From assembly GCF_001282685.1 (NCBI RefSeq), contig NZ_LN875034.1:585551-649550 (forward strand): a stretch of 64,000 nucleotides of DNA, in the 5' to 3' direction. Made by a program: the position numbers and the translations under genes. Positions 9,407-18,483 of the stretch are shown here, in pieces (positions within the stretch are counted from its first letter, which is position 1; the number at the start of each line of letters is the position of its first letter). The notes beneath the pieces were generated by a model. That model saw only the letters and a program-made list of their open reading frames with translations. It ran no database searches and was not told the DNA's origin. The DNA comes from Niameybacter massiliensis (GTDB taxonomy: Bacteria; Bacillota; Clostridia; Lachnospirales; Cellulosilyticaceae).

Positions 9407-9450
9407 ATAAAAGCAAGAGGGAATTAAGATTAATTCCCTCTTGCTTTTAT
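9407..9450 (-). terminator. Terminator of apbE
   Basis: A perfect 21 bp stem (9407-9427 with 9430-9450) has only a 2-base centre, followed on the minus strand by a T-rich run. It begins five bases after the apbE stop. Confidence 0.85.
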
Positions 9451-9454
9451 CTGT

Positions 9455-10501
9455 TTAATTTATAAGTTCAAATGCTTCATTGGTAAGTACAAAGTTTCCT
9501 TTGAGGCCTTCAGTGATATAAATCTTTGAGTCTTTACTAATGAAAATAGCATCAACACCAGGAAGTGTTTGGACAAAGGCTAGTCCTTCTTCAAGACCTT
9601 TAGAAAAAACAGCAGTAGATAGAGCATCCCCATCAATAGATTTATCACTAATAATAGAAATCCCAGCAATATCATTATCAAAAGGATAACCTGTTTTTGG
9701 ATCAAGAATATGATGATATTTTTTACCATTAGCTTCAAGGAAGCGTTCATATATACCTGAAGTTACAACAGATTGATCAGCAACAGAAACATAGCCAACA
9801 ATATTGTTACGATTTTCAAAAGGATCTTGAATACCTACTTTCCAAAGTGAGCCATCTACTTTATGACCTAGAGTATAAATGTTCCCACCTAAATCGACTA
9901 AAGCGTGTTCTACACCTTTAGATGCGAGAAGGTCAGCAATAGCATCGGCAGTATAACCTTTAGCGATACCTCCTAGGTCTAGCTTCATATTTGGTTTTTC
10001 TAAATAAATAGTAGAAGCATCTGGATCTAAAATAATATTTTCATAACCAATAGTAGGAAGAGCTGCATCAATCTCTTCTTGACTAGGCACACGCGCTTCA
10101 GGGAGTCCGATACTCCAGAGTTTTACGATAGGTCCTACAGATAAATCAAAAGAACCATTTGTAAGTTCACTATAGTAAACACCTTTTTCTACAATATCAA
10201 AGAGTGTGCTATTTACTTTATAAGGGGCAGTGCCACTAGAAGCATTAAGTTCTGTAAGTAGGGTACTACTTTTATTTAAACTAAGCTCATTTTCGAGTTC
10301 TTTAACTAAGTTAAAGGCATCATTTAAGATTTCTGGGTCTTGATGATCAAAGAGTGTAACAGATACGGTTGTACCCATTAATAATTCAGTACGCTTTAAT
10401 GGATCTGATGAGGTATTCTTTGATACAGTGTTATTGCAACCTACAAAAAATAGGGAAGTAACTAAGCTTAAGGATATAAGTGATTTAAAAAAAGTCTTCA
10501 T
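9455..10501 (-). CDS. apbE: FAD:protein FMN transferase (flavinyltransferase), lipoprotein
   Basis: A 348-residue ApbE-family enzyme that transfers FMN from FAD onto a Thr of partner proteins outside the cytoplasmic membrane. The N-terminus is a lipoprotein signal with FVGC (Cys22). The core shows MGTTVSVTLFD near 43, KLDLGGIAKGYTADAIADLL near 173, VDLGGNIYTLG near 203 and a C-terminal DGDALSTAVFSKG segment with the catalytic Mg-binding Asp. It lies 185 bases downstream of the FMN-binding lipoprotein gene on the same strand; that lipoprotein carries the TGATS target motif and is the obvious substrate. This matches the FmnB role in flavin-based extracellular electron transfer. The terminator between the two genes means separate or partly coupled transcription. 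Confidence 0.94.
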   Translation of the reverse strand: MKTFFKSLISLSLVTSLFFVGCNNTVSKNTSSDPLKRTELLMGTTVSVTLFDHQDPEILNDAFNLVKELENELSLNKSSTLLTELNASSGTAPYKVNSTLFDIVEKGVYYSELTNGSFDLSVGPIVKLWSIGLPEARVPSQEEIDAALPTIGYENIILDPDASTIYLEKPNMKLDLGGIAKGYTADAIADLLASKGVEHALVDLGGNIYTLGHKVDGSLWKVGIQDPFENRNNIVGYVSVADQSVVTSGIYERFLEANGKKYHHILDPKTGYPFDNDIAGISIISDKSIDGDALSTAVFSKGLEEGLAFVQTLPGVDAIFISKDSKIYITEGLKGNFVLTNEAFELIN

Positions 10502-10639
10502 ATTAAAATCTCCTAGTAAATGTATCAGATAAGTAAATCTTTTATATTATATAGTACTATCTTGAAAATAAAAAGATAGGTATAACTCTAGTTTAACATA
10601 TGAAACAAGGAAGTATCATATGAGATTGTAGATTGAGAT

Positions 10640-10672
10640 AAAAAAAGGATGTTTGACTAGGTCAAACATCCT
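10640..10672 (-). terminator. Terminator of the FMN-binding lipoprotein gene
   Basis: A 12 bp perfect stem (10646-10657 with 10661-10672) with a 3-base loop is followed on the minus strand by seven T. Confidence 0.85.
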
Positions 10673-10686
10673 CAAGAATTTATATA

Positions 10687-11226
10687 TTACTCTGCAGCTG
10701 GAGCTTCAACAAGAAGAACTTCTGTGTTACCTTCTTGGATGTTAGCCATAAGAGCTGTAGCTAATGTTGCGAAATCATTTGATGAGCTTGTAGCACCTGT
10801 TACAACATCTACTGCAGCAGGATCTTGAGTAGCAACTAAACCTTCAGCTAAAGCTGGAGAGAATTCAGCTGGGCTTGTACCAGCGATATCTTTCATTTTT
10901 GCATTGTATTCAGCATCAGCTGATTTTAAAGCGCCTTCAGCATTTGCATAATCGAAAGCAGCAGCAGTGATTTGACCACCTTCAACTGTTACTTCTACGA
11001 AAGCTTTCCAACCACGTTCGTCAGCTTCAGCGTATTCAGCTTTGTATGCACCATCTTTTAATGCACTAGCTTCTTCAGCAGGAGCTTCTTCTGTTGTGTT
11101 GTCTTCAGCTGGAGTTTCTACAGCTGGTTTTTCAGCAGGAGCTTCTTCTTTTGATGAACAAGCTGTAAATGATCCAAGTGCAACTACTGATGCACACATT
11201 AATGCGAAAAGTTTTTTATTTTTCAT
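10687..11226 (-). CDS. FMN-binding lipoprotein, probable ApbE-flavinylated electron carrier
   Basis: A 179-residue exported lipoprotein: signal MKNKKLFALMCASVVALGS with the lipobox FTAC (Cys23). Residues about 24-55 are a low-complexity Ala/Glu/Pro linker (EEAPAEKPAVETPAE), which would hold the domain away from the membrane. An FMN_bind domain occupies about 56-170 and ends in VTGATSSS; Thr146 of TGATS is the expected covalent FMN site. PplA of Listeria, the final carrier in flavin-based extracellular electron transfer, is similar but has two such domains; this one has a single domain. With apbE beside it and ndh2 divergent, a role in electron export is likely. The actual acceptor is unknown. 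Confidence 0.85.
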   Translation of the reverse strand: MKNKKLFALMCASVVALGSFTACSSKEEAPAEKPAVETPAEDNTTEEAPAEEASALKDGAYKAEYAEADERGWKAFVEVTVEGGQITAAAFDYANAEGALKSADAEYNAKMKDIAGTSPAEFSPALAEGLVATQDPAAVDVVTGATSSSNDFATLATALMANIQEGNTEVLLVEAPAAE

Positions 11227-11551
11227 GTTTAATTTCTCCTAATCAATGTTAATTATGTAAAAACAAAGCACTCACTATTCTACTTCTGAAATGTTAATAA
11301 AATATGAACTTATACTGAATAAACTATGAACTACTATGAATTGATGTAATAATTTATGGAAATTTAGAAAATAACATAGGATAATATATTGTAAAAGTTA
11401 AAAAAGATAGATTATATAATGCTTAAATTAAAAATCCTTTAAAATGAAGCGAAATGGGATTATTTTAAAACTAGACAAATATGAAGATGTTGTGTACACT
11501 GTATTGGAAAATGGAAAAAAATTATGTTAAGTGGCTAGAAGGAGACAAGAC
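11227..11551. other. Divergent intergenic region of the electron-transfer cluster
   Basis: This 325-base AT-rich region must hold promoters for both the lipoprotein gene (minus) and ndh2 (plus). A perfect TATAAT at 11415-11420 lacks a good -35 at 17 bases. On the minus strand TAGAAT (11282-11277) is a possible -10. TATGAACT occurs twice and TATGAATT once within 11311-11344, an imperfect direct repeat that may be a regulator site. No gene is seen. Confidence 0.35.
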
Positions 11552-13417
11552 ATGGCAGCAACAAATATTGTAATTTTGGGTGCAGGTTACGCAGGTGTAC
11601 ATGCAGCTAAAAAACTAGCTAAAAAGTACAAGAAGAATAATGATGTAACAATCACACTCATTGACAAAAACCCTTACCATACACTCATGACAGAACTTCA
11701 TGAAGTGGCAGGAGGACGTGTACCAGAAGCATCAGTAAAAGTAGACCTACATAAAATCTTCCACCGCACAAAAGTAAATGTGGTAGTAGATTACATTGAA
11801 AATGTAGATTTAGAAAAACAAGTTGTTAAAACAACTCATGGTTCATATGACTACTCATACTTAATGGTAGGTCTTGGAAGTGAACCAGCATACTTTGGTG
11901 TACCAGGTGTAAAAGAACACGGGTTCAGCCTTTGGTCTTTAGATGATGCACTTACTATTCGTGAGCACATTGAGTACCAATTTAGAAAAGCTTCTATTGA
12001 AAGAGATGAAAAAGTAAGACGCGAAATGCTTACTTTCATCGTAGCAGGAGCAGGCTTTACAGGTATAGAAATGGCTGGAGAACTTCTTGAGTGGAAAGAT
12101 ACTTTAGCAGCAAAATATCATGTAGATGTAGAAGAAGTTCAAGTATATGTAGTTGAAGCAGCAGGAACAATTCTTAACATGCTTGACCAAAAACAAGCAG
12201 CAAAAGCTGAAAAGTATATGGTTAAACATAAAATTGAAGTGCTTAAAAATGCTCCAATTACAGAAGTTAAAGAAGATAGTATTACACTTAAAGATGGTAG
12301 AAGTATTGCAACACGTACACTTATTTGGACTTGTGGTATCCAATGTGCAACAAGTGCATCAGATGTAGCAGTAGAAAAAACACGTGCAAACCGTCTTAAA
12401 GCAAATGATTATATGCAAGCAGAAGGTCATGAGAACGTGTATGTAATAGGTGACTGTGCATATAATGAAGCGAATGGTAACTGTACTAATCCTCAGATTG
12501 TAGAAGCAGCAGAACAAACTGCTACAACAGCGGCTAAAAACATCATTGCATCTATTGAAAACAAAGAAAAAGTTGCTTTCAAAGGGAACTATCATGGATT
12601 CATGGTTTCTATTGGTGGACGTTATGGTGTAGCGAATCTTTCAGGCGTTAAGCTTTCAGGTTTCTTTGCAATGGTAATGAAACATATTGTAAACCTTATC
12701 TACTTATTTGGTGTATTAAATGTAAACTCTGTATACCATTACTTACAACACGAGTTCTTCGATATGAAACAAAATAGAAATATTATGAGAGGTCATATCT
12801 CTTCTGTTGGAAACCGTCTATGGACAGTACCTCTTAGATTATATATTGGTACATTATGGTTAATCGAAGGTCTTAAAAAGTTAATGGGTGAAGGCACATG
12901 GGATTCTATGTGGGAAACACTTAAAAACACAGGTGATTTAGCAGTTCAAATTGGTTCAGACAGTTGGATTAAAGCAGGTAACGTAAAAATGCCATTTGAT
13001 TGGTTATATGATGCAGTTTCATCAGCTTCTCAAACAGGAGATGCAGCATCTACATTTGCAGAACCTATTTTAGATAAAATGCCAGGTTTCTATGAAGCAA
13101 TCATGAAAATCATGATTCCTACACCAGAGATGGCAGTGTTCTTCCAAACAATCGTTGTTATTACAGAGATTTGTATTGGTCTTGCACTTATCGCTGGTTT
13201 ATTCACATGGTTAGCATCAGCAGCATCAGCATTTATGACAATTAACTTCGTATTATCTGCTATGGCTGGATGGGAAATCTTATGGTTCTTCTTCGGTGCA
13301 ATTGCGCTGATGAATGGATGTGGACGTGCATTTGGTCTTGATCACTATGTGTTACCATGGATTAATAAGATAGCTGGTAATTGGTGGCTTGGAGAAAACA
13401 AGCATATTTATAAATAA
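11552..13417 (+). CDS. ndh2: Type II NADH dehydrogenase with C-terminal membrane domain (EET-type Ndh2)
   Basis: ATG 11552 is preceded by AGAAGGAG seven bases upstream and is preferred over the GTG at 11531; this gives 621 residues. The first ~400 residues are an NDH-2 flavoprotein: NAD/FAD motifs VILGAGYAGVHAAKKLAKK at the start, VAGAGFTGIEMAGELLEW near 165-182, VYVIGDCAYNEANGNCTNP near 299. The remaining ~220 residues form a membrane domain with several hydrophobic helices (FFQTIVVITEICIGLALIAG, WEILWFFFGAIALMNGCGRA), DoxX-like in appearance. Ordinary NDH-2 enzymes lack this extension; the Ndh2 of the Listeria extracellular electron transfer locus has it. It should pass NADH electrons to a quinone pool. 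The polyprenyl synthase gene follows after 34 bases. Confidence 0.9.
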   Translation: MAATNIVILGAGYAGVHAAKKLAKKYKKNNDVTITLIDKNPYHTLMTELHEVAGGRVPEASVKVDLHKIFHRTKVNVVVDYIENVDLEKQVVKTTHGSYDYSYLMVGLGSEPAYFGVPGVKEHGFSLWSLDDALTIREHIEYQFRKASIERDEKVRREMLTFIVAGAGFTGIEMAGELLEWKDTLAAKYHVDVEEVQVYVVEAAGTILNMLDQKQAAKAEKYMVKHKIEVLKNAPITEVKEDSITLKDGRSIATRTLIWTCGIQCATSASDVAVEKTRANRLKANDYMQAEGHENVYVIGDCAYNEANGNCTNPQIVEAAEQTATTAAKNIIASIENKEKVAFKGNYHGFMVSIGGRYGVANLSGVKLSGFFAMVMKHIVNLIYLFGVLNVNSVYHYLQHEFFDMKQNRNIMRGHISSVGNRLWTVPLRLYIGTLWLIEGLKKLMGEGTWDSMWETLKNTGDLAVQIGSDSWIKAGNVKMPFDWLYDAVSSASQTGDAASTFAEPILDKMPGFYEAIMKIMIPTPEMAVFFQTIVVITEICIGLALIAGLFTWLASAASAFMTINFVLSAMAGWEILWFFFGAIALMNGCGRAFGLDHYVLPWINKIAGNWWLGENKHIYK

Positions 13418-13451
13418 AAAGTGAAAAATAAGATTAGAAAGAGGTGAAGGC

Positions 13452-14417
13452 ATGCACATCATTTGGAACCAGTATCCAGAGATCAAAGAAGAGTTACTTG
13501 AAATTATAAAATTAATGGATGAGAATGCAAAATGCAAGGATAAGGTGATTGAGCAATCTATTAAAGATCTTATTCATGCAAACGGCAAGATGATTAGGCC
13601 TGCCTTTACAGTTCTTGCAGCACATTTTGGAGAGTATGAACCTGAAAAGGTAAGAGCACTAGCTTCTGTAGTAGAACTATTTCATATGGCAACTTTAGTC
13701 CATGATGATGTTATAGATGATGCTAATCTTAGAAGAGGTGTTCCTACAATCCAAGCCAAATATGGAAAAGAATATGCAGTCTATATTGGAGATTACTTAT
13801 TCTGTATTTGTTTTAAAATTTTAGCAAGTACAGCATCTCTTCAAAGTATCCAAGTAGATAGTTTATCCATGTCTAGAATTTGTCTAGGAGAAGTAGAACA
13901 ACTTAATTCTAGATTTAATACTGAAGTATCAGTTAAAAATTATTTAAAACGTATTGCAGGAAAGACAGCAGAGCTTTTCTCATTAAGTCTTTATATAGGA
14001 GCAGCAGAATCAGGTTGTAGCGATAAGTTAGCCAAAAGCTTTTGGCGTATTGGACACCATATTGGAATGGCATTCCAAATTATTGATGATATCCTAGATT
14101 ATACAGGATGTGAAAAATCAGTTGGAAAAGATCATGCCAAAGATATTCAAGAAGGTGTGTTTAATCTTCCTCTTATCTATGCATTAGAAAAGCAACCTAA
14201 AGATTTATTAGCTTTATTAGAAAAGCATCCATATAGCGATACAGATCTAAAAGAAATTGTTCAGCTTGTAGATACTTATGGTGGCATTGATAGAGCAAGA
14301 AGATTAGCTCATCAATATACACAAAAAGCTTACAAGCATATAAATAAGCTTCCAGATAATGAATATAAAATGATTCTATTAGAAGTTGCACACAAGCTTT
14401 TAGATAGAGCTTATTAA
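13452..14417 (+). CDS. Polyprenyl diphosphate synthase (DmkB-like)
   Basis: A 321-residue trans-prenyltransferase that builds the isoprenoid tail of a quinone. The first Asp-rich motif is LVHDDVIDDANLRRG (about residues 80-94) and the second is QIIDDILDYTG (about 212-222). GKMIRPAF near 48 and GKTAELFSLS are also conserved. No bulky residue immediately upstream of the first motif clearly fixes a short chain (FHMATLVHDD), so a C30-C40 product is reasonable. AGAGGTGAAGG precedes the ATG. Cotranscription with ndh2 argues for a dedicated demethylmenaquinone-type carrier, as with DmkB in the Listeria cluster; the DmkA prenyltransferase is not in this window. Confidence 0.9.
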   Translation: MHIIWNQYPEIKEELLEIIKLMDENAKCKDKVIEQSIKDLIHANGKMIRPAFTVLAAHFGEYEPEKVRALASVVELFHMATLVHDDVIDDANLRRGVPTIQAKYGKEYAVYIGDYLFCICFKILASTASLQSIQVDSLSMSRICLGEVEQLNSRFNTEVSVKNYLKRIAGKTAELFSLSLYIGAAESGCSDKLAKSFWRIGHHIGMAFQIIDDILDYTGCEKSVGKDHAKDIQEGVFNLPLIYALEKQPKDLLALLEKHPYSDTDLKEIVQLVDTYGGIDRARRLAHQYTQKAYKHINKLPDNEYKMILLEVAHKLLDRAY

Positions 14418-14435
14418 AAATATAAAGACATGTTG

Positions 14436-14486
14436 AAGCACGTTTTAACTTAGTATACAGACTAAGTTAAAACGTGCTTTTTTATG
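14436..14486 (+). terminator. Terminator of the ndh2 operon
   Basis: A stem of about 19 bp (14436-14454 with 14461-14479) with a 6-base loop is followed by a T-run. Confidence 0.9.
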
Positions 14487-15404: not shown

Positions 15405-16319
15405 ATGAAAAAGCAAGAACTCATTCAGGCAATACAAACTTTAAAAAAAGAAAAAGATGCTATTATTTTAGCTCATTACTATACAGATGGAGATGTACAA
15501 GAAATAGCAGATTATGTGGGTGATTCCTATTATTTATCAAAGATAGCTAAGGAAGCACCACAGCAATTGATTGTTTTTTGTGGTGTACTTTTTATGGGGG
15601 AAAGTGCTAAGATTCTTAATCCAGATAAAAAGGTACTCATGCCAGATCCTAAAGCAGATTGCCCAATGGCTCATATGGTGACCTTAGAAGAAATTAAGAG
15701 AGTACGTGCAGAGCATGAAGACTTAGCAGTCGTGTGTTATATTAACTCAACTGCAGAGATTAAAGCGTTATCAGATGTCTGCGTAACCTCTGCAAATGCT
15801 TTAAAGATAGTAAAAAATATTGAGGCATCTAAGATTTTCTTTATTCCAGATGAGAACCTAGGAAGTTATGTAGCACAGCAAGTACCAGAAAAAGAATTTA
15901 TTTTTAATAAGGGATTTTGTCCAATACATAAGAGCATGTCTAAAGAATTAGTACAAGAAGCTAAAGCACAGTATCCAGAGGCAGAGATTTTAATCCATCC
16001 AGAGTGTACACCAGATGTTGTTGCGTTAGGTGATTATGTAGGAAGTACAAGTGGCATTATTGAATATGCAACGAAGAGTAATAAAGAAGAGTTTATTGTT
16101 TGTACAGAGATTGGTATAGAGTATGCTCTTAAACAAAATAATCCTCATAAAGTTTTTCGTTTTGTAGGGGAAATGAAAGCCTGTGTAAGTATGAAATGTG
16201 TAAGTTTAGAAACACTCTATGAGACTTTAAAAAATGAGCAATATGAGATAACTTTAGACGAAGATGTTATGAAAAAAGCAGAACATGCATTACTTGAGAT
16301 GCATCGTTTAGCACAATAA
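15405..16319 (+). CDS. nadA: Quinolinate synthase
   Basis: A [4Fe-4S] enzyme that condenses iminoaspartate with dihydroxyacetone phosphate to quinolinate, the second step of de novo NAD synthesis. The 304-residue length fits the compact type. AHYYTDGDVQEIADYVGDSYYLS near residues 23-45 is the conserved N-terminal signature. Three Cys-bearing segments fit the cluster ligands: FCGVLFMGESAKIL, HPECTPDV and GEMKACVSMKCVSL. AGAGAGGTGAAC precedes the ATG. It is the first gene of nadA-nadB-nadC; nadB starts 24 bases after its stop. Confidence 0.96.
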   Translation: MKKQELIQAIQTLKKEKDAIILAHYYTDGDVQEIADYVGDSYYLSKIAKEAPQQLIVFCGVLFMGESAKILNPDKKVLMPDPKADCPMAHMVTLEEIKRVRAEHEDLAVVCYINSTAEIKALSDVCVTSANALKIVKNIEASKIFFIPDENLGSYVAQQVPEKEFIFNKGFCPIHKSMSKELVQEAKAQYPEAEILIHPECTPDVVALGDYVGSTSGIIEYATKSNKEEFIVCTEIGIEYALKQNNPHKVFRFVGEMKACVSMKCVSLETLYETLKNEQYEITLDEDVMKKAEHALLEMHRLAQ

Positions 16320-16343
16320 GAATGCTTAAAAAGAAGGGATAAT

Positions 16344-17669
16344 ATGAACGACTCATATGATGTAATTATAGTAGGAACAGGGGTATCAGGGCTATTTGCA
16401 GCACTTCACTTACCTAGTACTTATAAAATTTTAATGATTAGTAAGGATACATTAGAAGCAAGCGACTCTTACCTTGCTCAAGGTGGTATTTCTACATTAA
16501 AACATGAAAATGACTATGTAAGTTATTTTGAAGATACTTTAAAAGCAGGAAGATATGAAAATAACAAAGAAGCAGTAGACATTATGATCAAAGAATCAAC
16601 ACGTACAATTAATGAGCTCATTCAGTATGGTGTAGCATTTGATTCATATGACGGTGAGCTAATTTATACCAGAGAAGGCGCACATTCTACCAATCGTATT
16701 TTGCATCATAAAGATATTACAGGCAAAGAAATTACTTCTAAGCTTTTAGAAAGAGTAAAAGAAAAAGAGAATATTGAATTAGTAGAGTTTGTAACAATGA
16801 TAGACTTACTTACAGTAGATCATACATGTAAGGGGATAGTTGTAAAATATAATAAAGGTCATAAAATGATTTATAGTAAGCAAGTGATCTTGGCAACAGG
16901 TGGTATAGGAGGCTTGTTTGAAAGCTCCACAAACTATAAGCACTTAACAGGAGATAGCTTAGCAATTGCTCTAAAGCATCATATTGAATTACAAGATATT
17001 CATTACATACAAATCCACCCAACTACTTTATATAGTCGTAAACAAGGACGACGTTTCCTTATATCAGAAGCAGTGAGAGGTGAGGGAGGTATTCTTCTTA
17101 ATAAGAATAAAAAGCGATTTGTAGATGAACTTTTACCTAGGGATGTAGTAAGTGTAGCAATTTATGATCAAATGGTAAAAGACAAGAGCCCATATGTTTG
17201 GCTTTCGTTAAAACATTTAGGTGCAGAGAAAATTAAACAACGCTTCCCTAATATCTATGAGCGATGCCTAGAAGAGGGGTATGATTTAGCCTATGAGCCT
17301 ATACCGGTTACACCTGCACAGCATTATTTTATGGGTGGTGTGAAAGTGAATATGCATAGTCAAACCTCTATGAAAGCTTTATATGCTGTAGGAGAAACGA
17401 GTTGTAATGGTGTACATGGACGTAATAGGTTAGCTAGCAATTCTTTATTAGAAAGTCTTATATTTGCAAGAAGAGCTGCCGAAAGTATTATTAGTGAAAT
17501 GAATAATATGGATAAACAAGATTACAATGATTCTCTAAAACAGGTTACATATGAGGAAGATAGCAGAAATTTAGAAACACAATACAAAGAACTTATTTTA
17601 GGTGAGATTAAGCGAAAGGATGAGAAATTCTATGATCAATGGTGTCACAATGACAATCAATGTGGATGA
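16344..17669 (+). CDS. nadB: L-aspartate oxidase
   Basis: An FAD enzyme that oxidises L-aspartate to iminoaspartate for NadA; in anaerobes fumarate can be the oxidant. The N-terminal Rossmann motif is IIVGTGVSGLFAALHL. SDSYLAQGGIS, REGAHSTNRILHHKDITGKEI, QIHPTTLY, RGEGGILLNKNKKRF and the C-terminal GETSCNGVHGRNRLASNSLLE block are typical, including the catalytic Arg residues. At 441 residues it is about 90-100 shorter than the E. coli or B. subtilis enzymes because most of the C-terminal helical domain is missing; the catalytic core looks complete. AAGAAGGGAT is the ribosome binding site. Its 3' end overlaps nadC. Confidence 0.94.
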   Translation: MNDSYDVIIVGTGVSGLFAALHLPSTYKILMISKDTLEASDSYLAQGGISTLKHENDYVSYFEDTLKAGRYENNKEAVDIMIKESTRTINELIQYGVAFDSYDGELIYTREGAHSTNRILHHKDITGKEITSKLLERVKEKENIELVEFVTMIDLLTVDHTCKGIVVKYNKGHKMIYSKQVILATGGIGGLFESSTNYKHLTGDSLAIALKHHIELQDIHYIQIHPTTLYSRKQGRRFLISEAVRGEGGILLNKNKKRFVDELLPRDVVSVAIYDQMVKDKSPYVWLSLKHLGAEKIKQRFPNIYERCLEEGYDLAYEPIPVTPAQHYFMGGVKVNMHSQTSMKALYAVGETSCNGVHGRNRLASNSLLESLIFARRAAESIISEMNNMDKQDYNDSLKQVTYEEDSRNLETQYKELILGEIKRKDEKFYDQWCHNDNQCG

Positions 17670-18483
17670 TAAAATACTTTTAGCTTTACAAGAGGATATT
17701 ACAAGTGAGGATGTTACAACCAATGCTATAGTAAGAAAACCTACACCAGCTCGCGCAGAACTGATTTGTAAGCAAGATGGTATATTAGCAGGGATTGAAG
17801 TTTTTAGACGTACTTTTGAACTATTAGGTGATATTTGTTTTACAACAGAGTATCAAGATGGAGCATCTATTAAAAAGGGGGATTTAATAGGTGTACTTGA
17901 AGGAGATGCAAAGGTTGTTTTATCAGGGGAGAGAACAGCGCTTAACTACCTTCAACGTATGAGTGGAATTGCGACCATGACAAATGAATTAGTAGCTGAA
18001 CTAGAAGGTAGCAAGACTAAACTACTAGATACACGTAAAACAACTCCAGGGATGCGCGTATTTGAAAAGTACGCTGTAAAAGTAGGAGGCGGATACAATC
18101 ATAGATTTAATCTATCAGATGGTATTCTTATAAAGGATAATCATATTGGAGCAGCTGGTGGCGTGAAAGAAGCTATTGTAATGGCAAAAGAATATGCACC
18201 ATTTGTAAGAAAGATAGAGGTAGAAGTAGAAAATCTAGATATGTTAGAGGAAGCATTAGAAGCAGGTGCAGATATTATTATGCTAGATAATATGTCACTA
18301 GAGATGATGGAAGAAGCTGTACAAAAAGTTGCTGGAAGAGCACAAACAGAGTGTTCAGGTAACGTATCTAAAGAAAGATTAAAAGATATTGCTAAGGTAG
18401 GAGTAGACTATGTGTCTTGCGGAGCACTTACACATTCAGCACCTATATTGGACTTTTCACTTAAAAATTTAATAAATCTATAA
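17632..18483 (+). CDS. nadC: Nicotinate-nucleotide pyrophosphorylase (carboxylating)
   Basis: Quinolinate phosphoribosyltransferase, which makes nicotinate mononucleotide from quinolinate and PRPP. Conserved segments are ALQEDITSEDVTTNAI, ICKQDGILAGIEV, SGERTALNYLQRMSGIAT, LLDTRKTTPGMRVFEKYAVKVGG (split here only by position), DGILIKDNHI and ADIIMLDNMS. The start is uncertain: GTG 17602, ATG 17620, ATG 17632 and ATG 17650 are in frame. I chose 17632 (283 residues), 11 bases after AAAGGA; 17650 would also fit the family's N-terminus. Either way the gene overlaps the end of nadB by 20-38 bases, so translation is probably coupled. Confidence 0.93.
   Translation: MINGVTMTINVDDKILLALQEDITSEDVTTNAIVRKPTPARAELICKQDGILAGIEVFRRTFELLGDICFTTEYQDGASIKKGDLIGVLEGDAKVVLSGERTALNYLQRMSGIATMTNELVAELEGSKTKLLDTRKTTPGMRVFEKYAVKVGGGYNHRFNLSDGILIKDNHIGAAGGVKEAIVMAKEYAPFVRKIEVEVENLDMLEEALEAGADIIMLDNMSLEMMEEAVQKVAGRAQTECSGNVSKERLKDIAKVGVDYVSCGALTHSAPILDFSLKNLINL

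Follow-up and report, generated by a model that had tools for sequence, protein, structure and literature searches.

This article deals with a putative locus for flavin-based extracellular electron transfer (FLEET; EET for extracellular electron transfer in general) in Niameybacter massiliensis, found in a 64,000-nucleotide stretch of contig NZ_LN875034.1 (RefSeq assembly GCF_001282685.1, positions 585,551 to 649,550 of the forward strand), hereafter the window. The genome, close to Cellulosilyticum, measures 4.57 Mb in 11 contigs and is 98% complete; it is called G000 where it has to be told apart from the other genomes compared (G001 etc.), and L-numbers designate loci. The locus is made of four genes, with apbE and pplA read from the minus and ndh2 and hepT from the plus strand, the two pairs diverging across a 304-base intergenic region (Table 1). 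All four open reading frames (ORFs) are open and full length at the coordinates given by an initial annotation made from the sequence alone, and the cluster that it described is confirmed as an observation: the gene set goes beyond chance and is syntenic in relatives.

Table 1. Features of the putative FLEET locus and its borders (positions in the window).
Feature	Position	Strand	Remark
Terminator-like hairpin, 20 pairs, 3′ of apbE	9407..9450	-	T-rich tail possible on + strand too
apbE: ApbE lipoprotein, predicted FAD:protein FMN transferase, FmnB-like	9455..10501	-	Pfam ApbE 300.5 bits
Terminator-like hairpin, 13 pairs, between pplA and apbE	10645..10673	-	
pplA: PplA-like lipoprotein, one FMN-binding domain	10687..11226	-	FMN_bind 24.6 bits
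Flavinylation motif T143-G-A-T146; Thr146 = predicted FMN attachment site	10789..10800	-	
Divergent intergenic region pplA/ndh2	11227..11530		promoter scan no better than chance
ndh2: type II NADH dehydrogenase with C-terminal membrane extension	11531..13417	+	
DoxX-like segment of Ndh2 extension, residues 507-574	13049..13252	+	Pfam DoxX
hepT: HepT/DmkB-like polyprenyl diphosphate synthase	13452..14417	+	34 bases 3′ of ndh2
Terminator-like hairpin, 20 pairs, 3′ of hepT	14435..14480	+	

The product of pplA is a putative lipoprotein with a candidate lipobox cysteine, Cys23 in FTAC (by eye), and a single FMN_bind domain (24.6 bits against a Pfam cut-off of 22). Its only NCBIfam match is PplA (129 bits against a curated cut-off of 325), and its closest solved structure is CPE2226 of C. 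perfringens (E 5e-26). The motif DVVTGAT is intact: TGATSSS starts at residue 143, which makes the second threonine residue 146, as the initial annotation had numbered the flavinylated residue. Among 12 aligned sequences, D140 and G144 are invariant, while T143, A145 and T146 are at least 90% conserved. Listeria PplA bears two flavins, on Thr143 and Thr265 (PMC8906456). The description as a single-FMN PplA-like protein stands, but not that of a reduced version peculiar to this strain: one-domain PplA-like proteins are normal in the group, and at 9 of the 18 related loci the protein is about as long or shorter (137 to 160 amino acids).

The closest solved protein to ApbE is Listeria FmnB (7esa, E 3e-101, 342 bits; runner-up 220 bits), and a lipoprotein signal is present (lipobox judged by eye). 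ApbE occurs in 22 of the 24 genomes of the family, always as one copy save for two in G010, and it is the sole copy in N. massiliensis (a single PF02424 match). At the cluster of G003, the apbE gene is split into two ORFs (L071:4322-5385) with one TGA and two TAA within the match, either a broken gene or an assembly error. FMN_bind domains are found at five places in the studied genome: RnfG, a 614-residue protein, a 163-residue lipoprotein encoded beside an acetate-transporter gene, the PplA-like protein of the window, and a 221-residue protein. The last is a second PplA-like lipoprotein (L036:9100-9765, contig C11; DVVTGAT), encoded near siderophore-type ATP-binding cassette (ABC) genes and possibly active in extracellular ferric reduction for iron uptake. 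Rnf is encoded on contig C11 (L033), with RnfB, RnfC, RnfD and RnfG all above their NCBIfam cut-offs. Judging by gene content, the single ApbE must serve Rnf (RnfG/RnfD) plus all the other FMN_bind proteins of the genome, and its presence alone is thus no evidence of EET.

Ndh2 has a Pyr_redox_2 domain (Pfam, 135 bits, residues 12-329), followed by an extension in which a DoxX match exceeds its Pfam cut-off (31 bits against 23.6). The best solved NDH-2 covers residues 9-397 only, and hydropathy peaks lie at 378-396, 540-558 and 573-591. A model built from 15 sequences reaches a mean predicted local distance difference test score (pLDDT) of 60, with a helical extension that is mostly below 50. 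The protein is 58-73% identical to 18 Clostridium-type relatives; the nearest named record is Candidatus Cellulosilyticum pullistercoris (73%), followed by Clostridium species (58-69%). The hepT product belongs to polyprenyl_synt (Pfam, 230 bits), and its best NCBIfam match, at 273 bits, is heptaprenyl diphosphate synthase component II (cut-off 456.55); it is classed here as a heptaprenyl-type, DmkB-like synthase, with the family set by Pfam and the NCBIfam equivalog cut-off unreached.

FLEET loci have been defined by a NADH dehydrogenase with a membrane helix near lipidated ApbE/FMN-binding genes (Meheust et al., 2021; PMC8238504), and the studied locus has exactly this: a NADH dehydrogenase with a transmembrane helix near apbE and an FMN-binding gene. 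Gene identity, the flavinylation motif, genome-wide copy numbers and the history of the locus (below) were established directly. Together they point, with a probability of roughly 70%, to a FLEET-type EET locus with components dispersed over the genome. How would such a system work? By analogy with homologues, from which the catalytic steps, the electron-transfer steps and the quinone source are all drawn, Ndh2 would oxidize cytosolic NADH and pass the electrons to a membrane naphthoquinone, and the quinol would then reduce the FMN bound covalently to Thr146 of the lipoprotein, which would hand the electrons on to outside acceptors: ferric iron, shuttles, or a fumarate-reductase-like flavinylated lipoprotein whose gene lies in another part of the genome. 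A remote EetB-type ECF-S subunit would help FAD export, and ApbE would attach FMN from that FAD, the same enzyme also serving RnfG/RnfD. HepT would supply the prenyl tail of a quinone whose ring, apparently not made in the cell, would come from outside.

The fumarate-reductase-like acceptor may even be the principal one, this extracellular enzyme receiving most of the electrons in place of minerals or electrodes. Flavinylated reductases linked to EET are known from Gram-positive bacteria, and the 614-residue lipoprotein (L034:6878-8722, contig C11) combines FAD_binding_2 with a C-terminal FMN_bind domain (DAVTGAS) and falls in a flavocytochrome c family of NCBIfam. Its homologue in G003, 69% identical, is encoded next to apbE within the EET cluster. 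In N. massiliensis, however, the gene lies on a contig other than that of the cluster, which has a PplA-like protein of its own; this outlet is a serious but minority possibility.

The initial annotation had placed EetA, EetB and DmkA outside the window, and this is borne out: EetA, EetB and UbiA references have no match among window ORFs of at least 60 amino acids (blastp, E ≤ 1e-3). Its description of a reduced or split version holds as regards the split but not as regards any shortage of EetA and EetB, since a search of the whole genome, which it had recommended, finds one EetA (PF07009, 111 bits) and one EetB (PF07456, 145 bits), adjacent on contig C11; a DmkA-type UbiA was not found. At 13 of the 18 related loci, and also in G001, G002 and G003 of the same family, eetA-eetB lie between ndh2 and hepT, where the studied locus has a 34-base gap. 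The loci without the pair in this gap are L008, L009, L016, L022 and L024; eetA-eetB are found upstream within the cluster in L009, and downstream in L008 and L024 (Clostridium sp. D43t1 and C. cuniculi).

Could the remote pair simply be the cluster's own, moved elsewhere? This was ruled out, as the remote EetB is 58-59% identical to EetB of G017 and G021 against 34-37% for EetB of G001-G003, and in G000, G017 and G021 the pair occupies one shared locus (on the rrf2-nifS-nifU-mnmA side, names by eye), where apbE precedes it in G021. In a tree, EetB of the studied genome groups with G017 and G021 (supports 99/99), apart from cluster EetB, while its ApbE groups with the cluster/Clostridium type, apart from ApbE of G021, at moderate supports (82/83); some branches in these trees are long. 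The simplest history is that the cluster apbE was kept and the cluster eetAB lost, with the resident eetAB kept and the resident apbE lost.

EetB is present in 20 of the 24 family genomes, one copy each. In 16 of these 20, EetB and ApbE are encoded near each other on a single contig; in the other four (G000, G008, G010 and G017) they are on different contigs, so that a split kit is uncommon but not unique. More broadly, eetB (PF07456) was reported near apbE in 2,169 of 4,214 genomes with eetB, and near Rnf genes in 572 Clostridia genomes; its product is required for PplA flavinylation in Listeria (PMC9973259).

The least secure part of the system is the supply of quinone. MenD was looked for in N. 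massiliensis only, as the one men gene searched; its two matches, at 66.6 and 57 bits, fall far short of the cut-off of 244.2, and the better one is an acetolactate synthase (788 bits). For MqnA/MqnD (PF02621), none of the matches in the genome is convincing: there is one, partial, in a lipoprotein having its own ABC permease, where 29.5 bits just exceed the cut-off of 26. Convincing MqnA/D are found in none of 26 genomes, among them the seven with an MqnP-type UbiA described below, with 45.6 bits for the best PF02621 match. As for UbiA (PF01040), the genome has three matches above the cut-off and one below, of which one adjoins glycan-type genes (by eye). Two others, on contigs C6 and C11, are MenA-like, scoring 121.6 against 264 and 101.6 against 289 with models of 1,4-dihydroxy-2-naphthoate (DHNA) prenyltransferase; they might substitute for DmkA. 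A DmkA-type UbiA is present in 22 of 24 Ndh2-bearing genomes, a set selected for Ndh2 that holds many close relatives; one copy is a fragment at a contig end, and the two genomes missing it are G000 and G024. Those of G001 and L009 pass the cut-offs of the DHNA prenyltransferase models. A DmkA-type UbiA also occurs in two of five genomes without Ndh2 (G004 and G006), and it is thus not specific to EET. The absence of demethylmenaquinone pathway genes, which the initial annotation would have taken as refuting its claim, is hence borne out by half, for MenD, convincing MqnA/D and DmkA-type UbiA.

The genome seems unable to make the quinone ring, which is probably taken from neighbours, and any EET would by analogy depend on outside quinone. 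Lactiplantibacillus plantarum is a quinone auxotroph that performs EET, for which it needs neither dmkA nor dmkB when DHNA is given (PMC10746273, PMC9888254), so a missing quinone route does not refute EET. In G035 (L162, L165), a separate menaquinone-like cluster has HepT-like, DoxX-like, UbiA and MenG-looking methyltransferase genes (by eye), and complex-I-like genes stand beside it in L162.

Several points weigh against a dispersed FLEET system. The candidate FMN-bearing lipoprotein lies barely above the FMN_bind cut-off and far under that of PplA, and the genome search yielded no DmkA-type UbiA. In addition, Clostridium intestinale reportedly does not reduce Fe(III) oxide (PMC13134045), and the locus of C. 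intestinale DSM 6191 reads pplA-ndh2-eetA-eetB-hepT, with no apbE within the 21.9 kb examined. A cluster without ApbE is thus not sufficient, although the strains may differ; the case could reflect a requirement for ApbE or quinone, or else another role of the cluster in that species.

Do these gaps mean that the locus is a decaying remnant, with ApbE kept for Rnf and ndh2, pplA and hepT as passengers after the loss of the cluster eetAB and dmkA? Both the cluster eetAB and a DmkA-type UbiA are indeed missing from the genome, and eetAB are likewise not between ndh2 and hepT at five of the 18 related loci. Between the genes that in G001 flank the cluster, the Ndh2-less genome G004 retains nothing but apbE and eetAB, which shows that the kit can outlive EET. 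Decay is nevertheless unlikely in N. massiliensis, where all four ORFs are intact, Ndh2 remains 60-72% identical to 14 aligned relatives, the flavinylation motif is preserved, three strong terminator-like hairpins frame the units, and an EetAB set predicted to be functional is encoded elsewhere. An ordinary complete FLEET system, its DmkA and quinone genes having escaped assembly, is less likely again: the 11-contig assembly is 98% complete and nearly all Ndh2-bearing genomes in the set have a DmkA-type UbiA, but MenD, MqnA/D and DmkA would all need to fall in the missing part, and no compared genome has a convincing MqnA/D. Equally improbable is that Ndh2 and a membrane quinone serve internal redox balance only, with the lipoprotein in iron uptake or sensing as the second PplA-like protein near siderophore-type genes might suggest, for pplA and ndh2 share a divergent promoter region here and at eight related loci (L010-L015, L017, L021). 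The dispersed FLEET locus is preferred, and the interpretation first given is in part supported: the split locus has an ordinary core, and what is unusual is the mosaic nature of its flavin kit and the lack of a quinone route.

If the ring comes from outside, it may enter through dedicated transporters. The neighbourhoods of UbiA genes suggest, at somewhat less than even odds, that EET clostridia lacking naphthoquinone-ring synthesis use dedicated ABC importers, encoded beside the prenyltransferase, for soluble ring precursors, and run EET on their neighbours' quinones. The proposed substrates are DHNA, 1,4-dihydroxy-6-naphthoate or a conjugate, and three importer types are envisaged: an NMT1 set with MqnP-type UbiA, a related set with the C6 UbiA, and a CUT1 set plus an NMT1-like protein with the C11 UbiA. 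Transporters of quinone-ring precursors were stated in print to be unknown in 2016 and 2017, and searches of open-licence papers turned up none whose title or abstract opening describes an importer of DHNA or a precursor.

The first type involves MqnP-type UbiA, which is found in seven genomes (G001, G024, G032, G034, G035, G038 and G039). These are not independent, G024/G039 being close kin, as are G034/G035/G038. In all seven it is followed, in the same gene run, by an NMT1-type substrate-binding protein (SBP), an ATPase and a permease; UbiX and UbiD each occur in six of the seven runs, and the UbiD of L008 is above the equivalog cut-off for menaquinone decarboxylase (679 against 495.9). In G024 and G039 (Clostridium sp. 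D43t1 and C. cuniculi; loci L008 and L024, with L171 and L172), the order is ndh2-hepT-U32-aminotransferase-UbiD-UbiA-UbiX-SBP-ATPase-permease-apbE-eetA-eetB, which puts the importer inside the EET locus. Upstream of the MqnP module, six of the seven genomes encode a U32 protein together with a class III aminotransferase (L008:5010-8224, L130:9565-12795); the best model matches of the U32 protein are TrhP and UbiU, below cut-off, and the two proteins might modify the imported ring.

In N. massiliensis itself, a divergently oriented SBP-ATPase-permease set lies beside the C6 UbiA. Its SBP shares 30-33% identity with the MqnP-linked SBPs (E 1e-46 to 4e-53); a further NMT1-like SBP from this genome has no real match to it (E 0.83). 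G018 shares the arrangement (UbiA 67%, SBP 56% identical). The C11 UbiA belongs to a six-gene operon encoding an ATPase, a sugar-type SBP, two permeases (a CUT1-type transporter), UbiA and a signal-less NMT1-like protein. This operon is conserved in all four genomes with this type of UbiA (G000, G025, G030 and G036; L037:7501-14087, L141, L142, L009/L169), and in G025 (L009) it ends about 60 bases from the eetB of the EET cluster. A phmmer search of the NMT1-like protein against solved structures found nothing significant (best E 0.24), and its single-sequence model (mean pLDDT 40) is unusable for choosing between an MqnA/MqnD-like and a THI5-like fold.

The neighbourhoods of further UbiA genes were compared. 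The NMT1 set adjoins C6-type UbiA at only two of seven loci, and the link is weakened by the other five, all Clostridium, which adjoin a Mgl-type galactose transporter. As a control, an NMT1 SBP lies within two ORFs of a DmkA-type UbiA at none of 23 loci, some of them cut by contig or stretch ends. That every MenA-like UbiA stands beside an NMT1 importer is ruled out by these two counts. Another ABC component occurs within two ORFs of a DmkA-type UbiA at two of the 23 (G032, and a PstS-like gene at G006), so ABC neighbours can arise without any such link. Finally, the compounds carried by NMT1-type SBPs are diverse, and in NCBIfam those described here are best matched by sulfonate binders, below cut-off.

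For comparison with known systems, seven of the eight genes of the Listeria list (PMC8906456) were looked for; four are in the window and two elsewhere in the genome, and DmkA was not found. The likeness covers FmnB-like ApbE, a PplA-like lipoprotein, Ndh2 with its membrane extension, a DmkB-like synthase, and EetA and EetB in the genome. Unlike in Listeria, EetAB are on another contig, the lipoprotein has one FMN site instead of two, and neither DmkA-type UbiA nor quinone-ring synthesis was found. The FLEET system of L. plantarum also has Ndh2 and PplA, in a species that does not make the quinone ring (PMC10746273, PMC9888254), but its locus includes dmkA, whereas here two MenA-like UbiA genes stand beside putative ABC importers on other contigs. 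The Cellulosilyticum (L007, L069) and Clostridium (L009-L024) loci agree in gene types, in the divergence of apbE-pplA from ndh2 and in the one-domain PplA-like protein, and differ by the usual eetA-eetB insertion in the ndh2-hepT gap. The system of Rnf, ApbE and EetAB uses the same kit, which the Rnf of the studied genome would need too; Rnf, however, is encoded elsewhere and has its own flavoprotein, RnfG.

As FLEET is known from many Firmicutes, the cluster alone is one more case. In a search of open-licence papers on Cellulosilyticum and EET, no title deals with this cluster. What is useful is its state, in which FAD export, flavinylation, prenyl-chain synthesis and electron transfer would be encoded on separate regions of the replicon; that one ApbE would serve both Rnf and EET, and that no quinone-ring route was found, are also of note. 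Should the importers prove true, they would offer gut and soil ecology a genetic marker of quinone cross-feeding.

In the window, no Rfam family was matched at gathering scores, and the promoter scan was uninformative (28 found against 28.3 expected). NadB requires an electron acceptor. NadA-like, NadB-like and NadC-looking (by eye) genes, in a neighbourhood not conserved in the relatives viewed, follow hepT by about 1 kb on the plus strand (15405-18483).

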